45,484 nucleotides of DNA, taken from Flavobacteriales bacterium. Lineage in GTDB: Bacteria; Bacteroidota; Bacteroidia; Flavobacteriales_D; Sanyastnellaceae. The stretch is taken from positions 1-45,484 of the forward strand of contig JADFAK010000179.1 in assembly GCA_015665315.1 (NCBI GenBank), given 5' to 3'. How positions within the stretch are numbered: position 1 is the stretch's first letter; each line of letters opens with the position of its first letter. The notes below the pieces were generated by a model. The model was not told the origin of the DNA. It searched no databases and saw nothing but the letters and a program-made list of their open reading frames with translations. Shown here piece by piece: positions 745 through 5,066 of this stretch. Made by a program: the position numbers and the translations under genes.

Positions 745-1302
745 CTAGGGCTTGGTTTGCTCGTTGCAGATGGTGCAATGTTCTGGGATACAGTTGTCTC
801 CCTTCAGTTTTCCCGTTTGGTCTAACTGAAAGTGGCAGCAACTGACGAAATTTTCCTGAAGCTGCTTGCGGGCGCGTTGGATTCTGGATTTGGTGGCAGA
901 TAAACTTAGCCCCAGACGTTTGGCGATTTCGCTTTGCTTGATTCCACGGATGTCAGAAAGGACCAGCGCTTCGCGGTACATAGCCGGTAGGGCGTTGATC
1001 ATGGGGTCCAAACAGTGAATCAACTCCTCTTCGAAATCTTCGTCGGTGGAAAGTGAGGCCTCGTTGAGCTGAGCCATTTGGCCTTGTGCCTTATAATGAT
1101 CGTTGAGCAAATTGCGGACAATTCGGTATACCCATGCTCTAACTTTTTCCTCACTCTCAAGTTTATCCAAATGGAGATGTATGCGCAAAAATGCTTCTTG
1201 CAGAATGTCATCGGTGTGGTCGGCAGATTGTACTCGCTTGAATATAAACCCGCGCAATTCGTCGGCAAATTGTGTCCAGACTTTTTGAGTTGTTATCTTC
1301 AT
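745..1302 (-). CDS. sigZ: ECF-type RNA polymerase sigma factor, SigZ-like
   Basis: This 185-residue protein has sigma region 2 at about residues 10-70 (DDILQEAFLRIH and the RAWVYRIVRNLLNDHY segment) and region 4 at about 100-150, with the helix-turn-helix KQSEIAKRLGLSLSATKSRIQRARKQL. After region 4 comes a Cys/His-rich tail with C155, C156, H157, C171, H175, C176 and C179. Such a tail is known from the SigZ group, whose members are usually annotated without a defined anti-sigma factor. No anti-sigma gene lies next to it here. It is preceded on the same strand by a 37-residue metallothionein-like gene, with a 12-bp-stem hairpin in the 63-nt gap. I infer that the tail binds a metal or senses thiol state and that the two genes form one unit. 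Confidence 0.88.
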   Translation of the reverse strand: MKITTQKVWTQFADELRGFIFKRVQSADHTDDILQEAFLRIHLHLDKLESEEKVRAWVYRIVRNLLNDHYKAQGQMAQLNEASLSTDEDFEEELIHCLDPMINALPAMYREALVLSDIRGIKQSEIAKRLGLSLSATKSRIQRARKQLQENFVSCCHFQLDQTGKLKGDNCIPEHCTICNEQTKP

Positions 1303-1311
1303 GGTAGAGTA

Positions 1312-1344
1312 GATGGTCTGCCCAAGAGTTTCGGGCAGACCATC
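1312..1344 (-). promoter_or_regulatory. Strong hairpin between metallothionein-like gene and sigZ
   Basis: The arms GATGGTCTGCCC (1312-1323) and GGGCAGACCATC (1333-1344) pair perfectly over 12 bp around a 9-nt loop. Read on the minus strand, the hairpin ends 9 nt before the sigZ ATG at 1302 and is followed by TACTCTACC, not a U-run, so it is not a standard intrinsic terminator. It could stabilise the upstream mRNA end, limit ribosome access to sigZ, or be a processing site. All three are inference. Confidence 0.7.
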
Positions 1345-1365
1345 GTGATTAAAATCGTTGTGAAT

Positions 1366-1479
1366 TTAGCACTTGCAAGAACAAGCACATGTACAATCTT
1401 TGCATTCGCAGTTGCTATTGTCTGTTGAACAGTTGCAATTGGTGCACGAACACGTGTTTTCTCCTTTTGAATTTTTCAT
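1366..1479 (-). CDS. Metallothionein-like Cys-rich small protein, 37 aa
   Basis: The frame opens with ATG at 1477-1479 and closes with TAA at 1366-1368. The product has 11 cysteines in 37 residues, at positions 10, 12, 15, 17, 24, 26, 29, 31, 33, 35 and 37, arranged as repeated Cys-x-Cys and Cys-x2-Cys motifs with no aromatic residue. That composition is the hallmark of metallothioneins, small cytosolic proteins that bind Zn, Cu or Cd as thiolate clusters. It has no His and lacks the zinc-finger fold features of cyanobacterial SmtA, so it would be a different type. It has no signal peptide. The next gene downstream is sigZ, whose protein also carries a Cys-rich tail. The reading frame is very short, but chance production of this spacing is unlikely. 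Confidence 0.7.
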   Translation of the reverse strand: MKNSKGENTCSCTNCNCSTDNSNCECKDCTCACSCKC

Positions 1480-1556
1480 ATTGTATCTTTTTGTTTCCCC
1501 GCTGACGCAAAACGACTCAAAAAGATGCAAGATTTTCCAAGAATCTGCTCAAATAG

Positions 1557-4500
1557 CTATCGTTGGATGATTACTTTCTGCGTTTGTGTAGTATTTGCCG
1601 ACTTCAACCTGACGAAGTAAATTCCTGATCTCAGCGCTGCTACATTGATGTTATCGCCGGCGTTGAGGGTTGCGGAGTAGACATATTTGCCTTGTGCGTC
1701 AATCATATCCAATTGAATAGGGCCCAAGGTTGTAGGGAACTGCACATTGAGTACATCGCTCGCCGGATTCGGAAATAAGTTGACCGCAAAGCCGCTTTCT
1801 AAATCTTCCACATCGGTTGCCATGGTCAAGTTGACGTTGTCGAGCCAAATGTGATTTCCATAAGCACCAACATTTGCGAATGCTAAAGTCACACACGATT
1901 CACCTGCCAGAGAAGCCAAATCGACTGTGTCCATGCGCCAGATGAGCTCGCCCTCCTGATCGTACCAAAACCACACGTAGTTGTCTTCAACCGCAAGTTC
2001 AAGCCCTTCCTTTTCATACAAGGTAATCCACTCATCGCTGTCGCCTGTCTGATACACCACCTTGAGTCCGTCGATGTAATCGGCGTATACCTGATAGCTC
2101 ACGTCGAAGTGCATGATGGCATTTTCGACATTGGTGAAATCTTGGGCCGGCATGATGAGTAGGTCGGTCTGACCATTCGTATCGACCCAATAATTCGGAA
2201 ACTGTGCCACTTGGTTGTCCTCGCCAAGAACATTTCCTTGTTCCCAAGTACCTCCGCCTTCAGGGTTGTAAATTTTCCAGTTTTCAGGCGGAAAACCGTT
2301 GTTGAAATCCTCGGCTATCGGGAAACCAATCGGCTCGTCGACTACTTCGATCATATTCTCCCAGGTCCACGTGTCGGTGTTTCCATCGCCATCTGTAATC
2401 GTTAATGTTACGTCGTAATTGCCTGATTGGGCATACGTTATTTGCGGCTCCAATTGGTCGGAAGTAGCTGGCACACCACCCTCAAAAGTCCATGAGAAAC
2501 TCGCTCCCTCGCACCGAATGACGCTGTTTTCCGTGAAGTGAATTGTATCGGCCTCGCACTGAATACCAAGGTTTAAATAGGTCTTGTTGGCCGTAAACGC
2601 TGCTTGAATATCAGGCTCTTCGTAGAAATTACTTTGGTGCACTCCGCGCGAACCAGCACTTCGGATTTTCCCTTCGCAGTAATTGCTTTGGAGGAAGACG
2701 GATGGAGTTTTGGCGGGCAGACCAGCATTGAAAAGTTCCCAGTCGGCCATGGTGCCATTTCGGTAGTAGACCGCGTGATCGGTTGCGATGTACAGTCCGT
2801 CATCCGTGCCTCGTTGATGGGCAATTGCTGTTGTAAACTGACCGTTGAGAGCGCTTCCTGTGAGGTTCTCCCATGAGTCTCCGCCATCGCTCGTCTTGAA
2901 TACTTTGTGGTCGCTTTGTGAGCCGATAATGACAAAATAAAGCACATTCGGGTCGGTACCATGAACATCGATGTACTTAGAGGAACCATTGTTGTTGCCG
3001 ACTGTTCCACTGTCTGGAGTAATATCCGTCCAGTTGTCGCCACCGTCTTCTGTGCGCCAGATTTTCCAGCCTGGTCCGCCGCTATCATGCGTCACGTAGA
3101 TCACATTCGGGTCTCGGGGTGCTACCTTCACGTTGACGATCAAACTACCGCCAAAATCATGAACTAAATTCCAAGAAGCTCCGCCGTTATTTGTTGTCCA
3201 TAACTCAGTCTCAACAGGGGAGTAGATGCGGTTGTAGCACTCCGGACTCCATTCCATGTTCCCATATTCTCCCCACCAATAGCTTGTGTTCGGACGTTTG
3301 CTATTGTCGTAGGTGAGGCCTGAAATCCGCTCAAATCGATCGGTTGTGTACTTGAACGCACCTCCATCGTGGTAGCCAATGGTGCTATCGCCTGGATTTA
3401 CAAATCCGCGAAAATTATCCCCCGCAAGCTCGGCCAACCAGCCACCGCTGGCCTCACTGTCTTGTCCCCAGTAGTATAAATTTCCATTGCGAATCAAGGT
3501 TCCATTGTGATAGGTTCCGCCTACCATGACGGAGCCATGACGAGCTCCCGATTGCCATCCCCAGAAATCGGTTCCGTGCATGCCGTACATGCGTGGTTCA
3601 ATGTTGTCGCCTTGGTTCGAAGAGTAGAATAGTCCGCCATCGGAAGCCACCCACATGTCGACCGACTCATCGGCATTTTGGAAGAATTTGACGTCGTGTA
3701 CATCGGCGTGGGTGTAGCGATCGGCTGTAAATTCTCCTGCCCACGTGACCCAATGTCCGTTCAACGACCAATCGCTTCCCGCATTTTCGCTTCGCCAAAC
3801 GTTGATTCCAGCTGAGAATATCAAGTCAGGGTTGGTCGGACTTACATCTAAACCAAGGTCGTAATAGAATTGTCCGCCCTCACCACTTCCGTCCTCACTC
3901 CAGCCCAGGGTATTCGGATTGACATCTGCCTCTGGCACCCCGCTTGGTCCTTCGCCACAGCATTGAAAAGCGAATGTTTCACCGGCATCTTCGCTGAGGT
4001 AAATACCATACAATCCAGAACCGCCATTTTCTTCACCTGAAGCGAGCACATACACACGATCAGGAGCAGCTGCAGAGACGCTAATCTCACATCTTCTTTG
4101 TTGCGCTCCGGCTGCTGGTTCTGGCCAACCAATAGTTGAATTGCTAAAGATCTCGCCCCCATCGACCGATCTCATCATCAATGTTTTGTTGTTGGACAAG
4201 CGAACGGTATAAATGGTGTCAGGAGCAGTGGGATGAAACTCGATCTCCATGAACTCTCCAGCTACCACCTGCTGCCATGACACTCCGCCGTCTTGGGTGC
4301 TTCGCAGACCGTTACTCGTGGCCGCAAAGAGATATTGATCGTTGCCTGGCTTGAACTTCAAGTCCCTCGACCAAAGCGTCAAAGATTGAAAAGCTTCATC
4401 GCCCGTCATATTCCATGTATCGCCACCGTCTGTGGTTTTATAAATAGTGCCGTTTCCCTCTCCGAAATACACTGTGTTGGGATCAGTTGGGTGAATGGCG

Positions 4501-5066
4501 ATGCTGTACACCGAAGTCACAAGCAAGTCGCGAGACATCAATTCCCAATGCATTCCTTTGTCGACCGACTTCCAAATTCCAGCTGTGGCGGTTCCTGCCC
4601 ACACGATATCTGGATTTGACGGTGCCTGTTCAACTGTGTAAACATGGCAAGCGCCCGGAGACTGTACTTCAAAATACATGGCCACTTCAGGGTCGAAGTG
4701 CCAAGGTCCCATTTCTTCCCAATTGGCGTCATCTCGTTGCTGGGCCTCGTGATACGTGTCGAGATAGTCCTGCTGTGCGCGAAGGTCTCTTTCTGGAATT
4801 TGAATCACCCCTTGCTCAGTAGCATAGGGCATGACCATGCGCGTCCAACGCTTGTAGTATTGTGTGTCGGCATTTTTGACAAACTCATTCGTCTCGTAAT
4901 ACGCTTCATACGCCTCACGTACATCTTTGACATTTGGATTTTCGCCGTACATCAATTGCACCCACAGAGGGTCGCTTTCTTCACTTGAATACTTGGTTTG
5001 AATAACGTGTTGGGCTTGAGCGGAAAGGCAGACAAGCGTGAGAAGAAGCAGGAGATATCGGGTCAT
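1557..5066 (-). CDS. Secreted BNR-repeat (VPS10/sortilin-like) beta-propeller protein with PKD and T9SS sorting domain
   Basis: This 1169-residue protein begins with a signal peptide (MTRYLLLLLTLVCLSAQA). Residues of about 120-860 contain many BNR/Asp-box-like motifs (TTDGGDTW, TQDGGVSW, SVDGGEIF, SEDAGETF, TNNGGASW, TEDGGDNW, TSDGGDSW), which build beta-propellers as in sialidases, xyloglucanases and Vps10 proteins. A PKD-type domain follows at about 880-940 (SFSWTFEGG, SGNYDVTLTITDGDGN), then a cleaved-adhesin/MAM-like jelly-roll segment at about 950-1085 and a type A sorting domain (LFPNPASDVLNV) in the last 75 residues. The protein should be exported by Sec, moved over the outer membrane by T9SS and attached to the surface or released. 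The ligand is unknown; no sialidase catalytic set was identified. A promoter lies directly upstream. Confidence 0.9.
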   Translation of the reverse strand: MTRYLLLLLTLVCLSAQAQHVIQTKYSSEESDPLWVQLMYGENPNVKDVREAYEAYYETNEFVKNADTQYYKRWTRMVMPYATEQGVIQIPERDLRAQQDYLDTYHEAQQRDDANWEEMGPWHFDPEVAMYFEVQSPGACHVYTVEQAPSNPDIVWAGTATAGIWKSVDKGMHWELMSRDLLVTSVYSIAIHPTDPNTVYFGEGNGTIYKTTDGGDTWNMTGDEAFQSLTLWSRDLKFKPGNDQYLFAATSNGLRSTQDGGVSWQQVVAGEFMEIEFHPTAPDTIYTVRLSNNKTLMMRSVDGGEIFSNSTIGWPEPAAGAQQRRCEISVSAAAPDRVYVLASGEENGGSGLYGIYLSEDAGETFAFQCCGEGPSGVPEADVNPNTLGWSEDGSGEGGQFYYDLGLDVSPTNPDLIFSAGINVWRSENAGSDWSLNGHWVTWAGEFTADRYTHADVHDVKFFQNADESVDMWVASDGGLFYSSNQGDNIEPRMYGMHGTDFWGWQSGARHGSVMVGGTYHNGTLIRNGNLYYWGQDSEASGGWLAELAGDNFRGFVNPGDSTIGYHDGGAFKYTTDRFERISGLTYDNSKRPNTSYWWGEYGNMEWSPECYNRIYSPVETELWTTNNGGASWNLVHDFGGSLIVNVKVAPRDPNVIYVTHDSGGPGWKIWRTEDGGDNWTDITPDSGTVGNNNGSSKYIDVHGTDPNVLYFVIIGSQSDHKVFKTSDGGDSWENLTGSALNGQFTTAIAHQRGTDDGLYIATDHAVYYRNGTMADWELFNAGLPAKTPSVFLQSNYCEGKIRSAGSRGVHQSNFYEEPDIQAAFTANKTYLNLGIQCEADTIHFTENSVIRCEGASFSWTFEGGVPATSDQLEPQITYAQSGNYDVTLTITDGDGNTDTWTWENMIEVVDEPIGFPIAEDFNNGFPPENWKIYNPEGGGTWEQGNVLGEDNQVAQFPNYWVDTNGQTDLLIMPAQDFTNVENAIMHFDVSYQVYADYIDGLKVVYQTGDSDEWITLYEKEGLELAVEDNYVWFWYDQEGELIWRMDTVDLASLAGESCVTLAFANVGAYGNHIWLDNVNLTMATDVEDLESGFAVNLFPNPASDVLNVQFPTTLGPIQLDMIDAQGKYVYSATLNAGDNINVAALRSGIYFVRLKSANTTQTQKVIIQR

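Follow-up and report, generated by a model that had tools for sequence, protein, structure and literature searches.

SigZ sigma factors recurrently paired with a small metallothionein-like protein in Bacteroidota: a candidate metal-responsive switch

What might an orphan sigma factor do when the gene directly ahead of it encodes a tiny cysteine-rich protein? SigZ is an orphan ECF sigma factor of unclear role, and a contig of a Flavobacteriales bacterium (JADFAK010000179.1, assembly GCA_015665315.1) raises this question. The window, by which we mean the whole 45,484-nt stretch that was analysed, carries on its minus strand a 37-aa cysteine-rich ORF (1366..1479) followed by a 185-aa SigZ-family gene (745..1302), with a hairpin in the 63-nt gap between them (1303-1365). 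The original prediction of a 37-residue, 11-cysteine ORF lying 63 nt 5′ of an ECF sigma gene on the same strand was accurate in both coordinates and gap, and so was its statement that no anti-sigma gene is linked, as none of the three flanking ORFs matched an anti-sigma family in Pfam. Downstream of sigZ lie a 56-aa ORF and a 130-aa ORF, neither of which matched an anti-sigma family in NCBIfam. The same-strand upstream neighbour (1557-5066, minus strand) encodes a 1169-aa protein with sortilin-like repeats, a PKD domain, and a type IX secretion sorting tail, which is probably unrelated to the module.

The sigma factor contains Sigma70_r2 and Sigma70_r4_2 domains and scored 179.8 bits against the SigZ model TIGR02959, above the cut-off of 168.65; against NF007215 (PRK09637) it scored 183.6 bits, under the cut-off of 212, yet this was its best match by E-value. 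TIGR02959, whose family includes Bacillus subtilis SigZ, also matches a B. subtilis control genome. The source genome has 29 Sigma70_r2 matches, so sigZ is one sigma gene among many. We compared its cysteines in an alignment of 20 sigmas with 29-41% identity to the window protein (hereafter A1), 19 rows of which had been picked for a Cys-rich neighbour. Five cysteines were present in all 20 rows: Cys97 in the sigma2-sigma4 linker (codon at 1012..1014, minus strand), the Cys155-Cys156 doublet just past region 4 (835..840, minus strand), and Cys176 and Cys179 of the terminal CxxC (766..777, minus strand). The Cys/His tail originally proposed survives in part, for every residue named exists and C155, C156, C176, and C179 are conserved, whereas H157 (1/20 rows), C171 (1/20), and H175 (2/20) are not, and these three were ruled out as ligands on that ground. 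Cys97, invariant in the linker, had been absent from that first list. In the window the linker has this single cysteine (IHCLDP) and the tail reads CC-x14-C-x4-CxxC, while the linkers across A1 carry C, CC, or C-x(2-3)-C.

The small protein (MKNSKGENTCSCTNCNCSTDNSNCECKDCTCACSCKC) has 11 cysteines among its 37 residues, in CxC and CxxC spacing, and no histidine. It shows the metallothionein pattern of a small, Cys-rich chain with CxC/CxxC motifs, but matched no curated metallothionein family, nor any other, in Pfam and NCBIfam at E ≤1, a weak test for a short, low-complexity query. Its size and cysteine content recall the bacterial metallothioneins SmtA, NmtA, PmtA, and MymT, which are under metal-responsive control; SmtA, PmtA, and NmtA are reportedly under AzuR. 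These four are controlled by repressors or other regulators, whereas in the module described here that part would fall to a sigma factor. Across 19 aligned small proteins, C10, C15, C24, and C26 are invariant, and the sequence between the cysteines is very variable. Two of the downstream Cys-rich ORFs (at L173 and L085) start, by eye, with a signal-peptide-like stretch, which suggests a possible secreted variant.

Searching 395 genomes of the phylum with TIGR02959 gave matches in 92 at 1e-25, 14 of them above the cut-off, and the phylum survey was built on the top 56 matches (at least 102 bits, window included) and their flanks. The signature was defined as the linker cysteine (C97 column) together with the CC doublet (C155-156 columns) and a terminal C-x(1-4)-C; a Cys-rich ORF as one of 20-75 aa with at least 6 cysteines, at least 20% cysteine, and an ATG, GTG, or TTG start; and pairing as such an ORF on the sigma's strand no more than 700 nt away. 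Bacteroidota relatives do carry the small frame beside sigZ, as the original prediction would have it: pairing was found at 18 of the 20 loci with the full signature (window included), at 1 of the 36 without it, and at 1 of the 66 generic ECF controls. The sole signature-less locus with a pairing, L121, has a sigma gene cut by a contig end. On the opposite strand, the corresponding counts were 0/20, 0/36, and 1/66. An order-level search with the A1 profile at 1e-35 matched 21 of 299 genomes, one match being the window again and one being unreadable through internal stops; among the 19 loci scored, the Cys-rich ORF stood at 15/18 with the signature and 0/1 without. The signature was itself defined from A1, whose members make up 16 of the 20 phylum-survey and 4 of the 18 order-level signature loci; outside A1 the ORF was found at 2/4 and 12/14 signature loci, respectively, 14/18 altogether, the order-level ones still having been retrieved with the A1 profile. 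SigZ and its metallothionein-like partner are a real, recurrent two-gene module.

The individual loci show how the pair varies. In a set of 60 genomes that included its own, the best SigZ matches beyond the source genome were G046 (41% identity) and G038 (38%), with a 49-aa and a 46-aa ORF, each with 14 cysteines, directly 5′ of the sigma gene; next came G012 and G031, both at 30%. G012 has a 33-aa, 11-cysteine ORF directly 3′ of the sigma gene. In G031 (L133/L161), a near relative of G012, the sigma gene is intact, the small-ORF frame runs into unrelated sequence, and the motif described below is degraded, which is a natural loss of the partner. The genus mate G001 had no SigZ ortholog. Over 34 loci, the Cys-rich ORF lies downstream of sigZ at 13. 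A Pfam scan covering 79 of the 127 neighbours of pairing loci found few metal genes: among the 25 commonest of 74 families, those of clear metal function amounted to two SBF matches, a family which we take to cover ACR3, and two of the ArsR family, so that recurrent metal genes beside the pair were discarded as a feature. Peripla_BP_2, whose substrate is unassigned, was seen at three neighbours in the same scan.

A chance ORF is ruled out by the pairing counts, by the rarity of such ORFs around generic ECF loci, and by their substitution pattern. In the 45-kb window, one ORF meets the Cys-rich definition, the small ORF itself, and three were counted on the two strands of the 429 kb that surround 67 generic ECF loci. 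Five pairs of relatives gave small-ORF pN/pS values of 0.05/0.66, 0.11/1.03, 0/0.39, 0.19/1.03, and 0.11/0.99, taken from pairs of equal length, with one locus serving in two pairs and several pS values saturated; two further pairs, of unequal length, were left out. Low pN/pS in these scored pairs indicates purifying selection on the protein that the small ORF encodes there; none of the relatives was close enough for the window's own ORF to be scored. A profile of the small proteins (A2), run on 24 genomes, gave five matches, each of them at the sigZ locus; it missed the window's own ORF and is therefore no measure of paralogues.

Descent was addressed with a core tree of 65 sigmas, built without the tail and linker columns and after exclusion of 8 divergent and 2 truncated rows. 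On it, the metallothionein-linked sigmas require 7 changes against a shuffled mean of 22.0, and a single clade of them is rejected (p-AU 8.9e-5); since they are not one clade, the neighbour swap seems to have occurred more than once. On a quick full-length tree of 73 rows, 6 changes were needed against 24.4 in shuffles, and there were two well-supported independent pairs. On the core tree, the independent-pair test, based on four well-supported pairs, was not significant (same way 1.9, opposite 0, no difference 2.1), so that signature and small ORF are strongly associated by count, an association not proved to be independent of descent.

Upstream of the pair lies a promoter-like motif, TGCATCTTTTT-N11-CGTC (1504..1529, minus strand), which ends 24 nt ahead of the small-ORF ATG. 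This is its one match in the window, against 0 in 100 shuffles, and the exact form occurs once in the source genome, at the sigZ locus; one mismatch adds no site there, and two mismatches give 15 sites against 7 for a reversed-pattern control, counts that neither establish nor exclude a larger SigZ regulon with distant targets. Read from the upstream regions of the loci, the motif is TGYRTCYTTTT-N9-12-GTC, i.e., TG[CT][AG]TC[TC]TTTT, a spacer, and GTC. A looser regex starts 50-82 nt ahead of the small gene at 24 of the 34 loci and 128 nt ahead at one, and is absent at nine; five sigma-first loci (L132, L135, L136, L139, and L140) have a copy before each of the two genes. At loci outside the motif derivation, the strict regex matched 13/15 of the order-level set (dinucleotide-shuffle mean 0.01) and 2/6 of the phylum-survey loci with linker C and CC (shuffle mean 0), in a test that was not fully blind, as the GTC ending and the 9-12 spacer were set after looser matches in the test loci were known. 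SigZ loci with CC and no linker Cys matched at 6/21 (shuffle mean 0.01), and generic ECF control loci at 0/66.

On the scale of whole genomes, the form TGYRTCYTTTTN{10,12}GTCT gave 15 matches in 12 of 17 genomes, 13 of the 15 at the sigZ locus, against seven matches for the reversed-pattern control; this GTCT-ending form, with spacers N10-N12, had no match in the source genome. Of 390 genomes, five had a match to the strict form TGCATCTTTTT-N10-12-GTCTA, against four reversed-control matches; three of the five were at SigZ loci (G243, G088, and G369), and the other two genomes were G259 and G136. Ahead of the small gene in the nearest relatives, G046 and G038, there was no match to the looser regex, and a mismatch-tolerant search showed no clear excess over the control (11 versus 9 and 14 versus 12, respectively); degenerate versions can be seen by eye, TGCGTCTTTTT...CGTATA in G046 and TGCGACTTTTT...CGTTAG in G038. 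A motif common to the loci implies autoregulation. We infer that it is the SigZ promoter, bound by SigZ, and the simplest reading of these upstream sequences is that SigZ would activate its own promoter, with the sigZ locus as its main target.

Between the two genes, the predicted hairpin is there: a 14-bp stem at 1312..1344 (minus strand; approximate limits), folding at -27 kcal/mol with a z of -9.07, equalled by 0 of 200 shuffles. At ORF-first loci, 11 of the 16 spacers that could be folded (window included) had a z no higher than -3 against 100 mononucleotide shuffles, five more such spacers being too short for folding; none of 13 sigma-first spacers did. Seven of the 11 hairpin spacers are then followed by at least four T, as in an intrinsic terminator. 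We infer an attenuator holding the sigma factor below the effector; in the window, where no U-run stands behind the stem, the hairpin may work through pausing or mRNA stability.

Surveyed SigZ members differ both in their linker cysteine and in their neighbour, which may be the metallothionein-like ORF, arsenic genes, or others. Arsenic neighbours were called by homology to representatives of ArsI, ArsM, ACR3, and ArsC, drawn as queries from the same surveyed loci, within flanks of ~1.5 or 4 kb; the ArsI/CadI, ArsM, and ACR3 representatives scored above their NCBIfam cut-offs, and the ArsC representative, a fragment truncated at the end of its contig, below. In the phylum survey, loci with CC and no linker Cys had arsenic genes nearby at 16/20 and a Cys-rich ORF at 0/20, loci with linker Cys and CC had a Cys-rich ORF at 18/22 and arsenic genes at 2/22, and the other 14 loci had one of each. 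At L118 (G291) and L119 (G187), the Cys-rich ORF and sigZ stand behind an ACR3-type gene that ends 272-305 nt before the sigma gene; with ACR3 beside these linker-Cys loci, the split from the arsenic types is not clean. Four further loci have a SigZ-like sigma with a linker Cys and an altered CC doublet, ahead of a PhzF-family gene at L101 and L106 and of a 315-333-aa protein at L095 and L103; the motif is present at L095, L103, and L106.

SigZ-like matches on plasmids number 1364 records, 1048 of them from Klebsiella; three loci were inspected, one of them enterobacterial. A Hymenobacter plasmid has ArsC and ACR3 genes ~2 kb away from a SigZ gene whose product carries linker Cys and CC. The Leclercia plasmid NZ_CP042495.1 (L209) has its SigZ-like gene between arsH and an arsD-family gene, in an arsenic locus that runs from an ArsR/SmtB-type gene through arsH and the sigma gene to the arsD-family gene. 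This locus resembles the window in its SigZ-like sigma, its linker Cys, and a GCATCTTTTT element seen by eye just past the sigma gene, but has no CC right past region 4 and is flanked by arsenic genes rather than a metallothionein-like ORF. A GCRTCTTTTT element was seen by eye near both the Hymenobacter and the Leclercia genes and was not flagged by the motif regex. On the Priestia plasmid NZ_CP137803.1 (L208), an annotated SigZ at 3963 (minus strand) has linker Cys and CC but lacks the terminal pair of cysteines; immediately upstream, the other strand carries a TGCATCTTTTT-N-CGTC motif.

Sigma factors that sense metals through a cysteine tail have been published. CorE of Myxococcus xanthus has a 38-residue, 6-Cys tail needed for its copper response and no linked anti-sigma, and its homologues, as counted in 2011, were 21 in four phyla, with none listed there from Bacteroidota (PMC3107203); the word metallothionein is absent from that paper. 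CorE-like sigmas have an essential CXC in the linker, CorE2 responds to Cd and Zn, and the ECF287 and ECF288 groups, with Cys-rich extensions, are suggested to act as CorE does (PMC8999054). CorE and CorE2 (former ECF44, now placed near ECF238) share with SigZ a short Cys-rich C-terminal extension, a linker Cys, and the lack of a linked anti-sigma, the last borne out in the window for three flanking ORFs; they are also partly autoregulated, as proposed for SigZ, and the CorE2 tail opens with a CC doublet like that of the window (PMC3107203, PMC8999054, PMC9023288). Unlike CorE-like sigmas, the window protein has no linker CXC, which is found in 0/20 rows of A1 between 8 residues before and 5 after Cys97, and its tail spacing departs from the C-x4-C-x2-C-x-C of CorE and the CC-x3-C-x2-C-x-C of CorE2 (PMC9023288). 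A metal response is described for CorE; that of SigZ is a prediction. The window SigZ may work as CorE does, but we do not class it as a CorE; it may prove to be a member of ECF287 or ECF288 and would then be less novel.

OrbS of Burkholderia cenocepacia likewise has a C-terminal Cys cluster, which serves it as an on-board metal sensor through which Fe(II) inhibits the sigma factor (PMC9023288). Beyond this inhibition, OrbS is set apart from SigZ by additional Fur control, siderophore targets, and a different Cys spacing. Neither a pairing of SigZ with a metallothionein nor any involvement of SigZ with metals was described in the titles and abstracts listed by searches of open-licence papers, which is weak evidence of absence. 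The suggestion that no system of this form had been described therefore holds for the SigZ-metallothionein pairing in the literature searched and fails for metal-sensing Cys tails, given CorE, CorE2, and OrbS.

We consider it probable, though short of certain, that the module is an autoregulated, anti-sigma-free, metal(loid)-responsive SigZ driving a metallothionein-like protein. This reading, made from genome sequences, draws on the recurrence of the pair, the five cysteines, the motif, the hairpin in ORF-first order, purifying selection on the small ORF in the relatives scored, and the arsenic genes near sister SigZ forms. Metal would be the signal, and both the SigZ cysteines and the small protein would bind it. 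SigZ would have little or no activity until its C97, C155-C156, and C176/C179 are engaged by a thiophilic metal or metalloid; it would then take RNA polymerase to the TGYRTCYTTTT-N-GTC promoter ahead of the operon, whose output would be abundant metallothionein-like protein that binds and buffers the metal. The intergenic hairpin would cap the sigma factor made per transcript, so that effector exceeds regulator.

The same circuit could answer to a different signal, disulfide or electrophile stress; the SigZ cysteines would then form a thiol switch, and the small protein would serve as a thiol buffer. Thiol switches are known in sigma control, RsrA being an example, and the conserved candidate ligands are all cysteines, with neither H157 nor H175 conserved; against this, metal clusters typically show CxC/CxxC repeats, sister SigZ groups adjoin arsenic genes, and two pairing loci adjoin an ACR3 gene, and we hold a thiol signal to be unlikely. 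Quite improbable, in our judgement, is that the small protein is no buffer and acts instead as a metal-dependent anti-sigma or co-regulator, binding SigZ through a shared metal: the ORF does co-occur with the linker-Cys form of SigZ, but the 20 SigZ loci with CC and no linker Cys lack it, and the protein matches no family and is very variable between its cysteines.

That the ORF is merely a Cys-sensing leader peptide, on whose cysteine codons stalling would govern read-through past the hairpin into sigZ, is suggested by the window itself, where a short frame rich in Cys codons lies directly 5′ and a strong hairpin precedes sigZ. The downstream loci, 13 of 34, several with their own copy of the motif, largely rule this out; in addition, CxC/CxxC spacing recurs among the small proteins, and 0/13 spacers in the reverse gene order reach a z of -3 or lower, which makes a leader role very improbable. 

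A broader form of the metal-responsive reading takes in the whole family, and we offer it tentatively, at slightly under even chances: SigZ proteins may be widespread one-component sigmas, each itself the sensor of thiophilic metal(loid)s, with one promoter grammar, one Cys-tail design, and two main neighbour targets, the linker Cys marking the metallothionein-driving forms and its absence the arsenic-locus forms. The SigZ family is found in Bacteroidota, Priestia, and Bacillus, and a SigZ-like form occurs on enterobacterial plasmids. If the switch reading is true, it would mean that metallothioneins can also be controlled through a sigma factor, and would place another anti-sigma-free metal-sensing sigma family beside CorE and OrbS. 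The pairing gives these poorly understood sigma factors a possible job, and SigZ a testable hypothesis that specifies one promoter motif, one target gene, and five cysteines for mutation.
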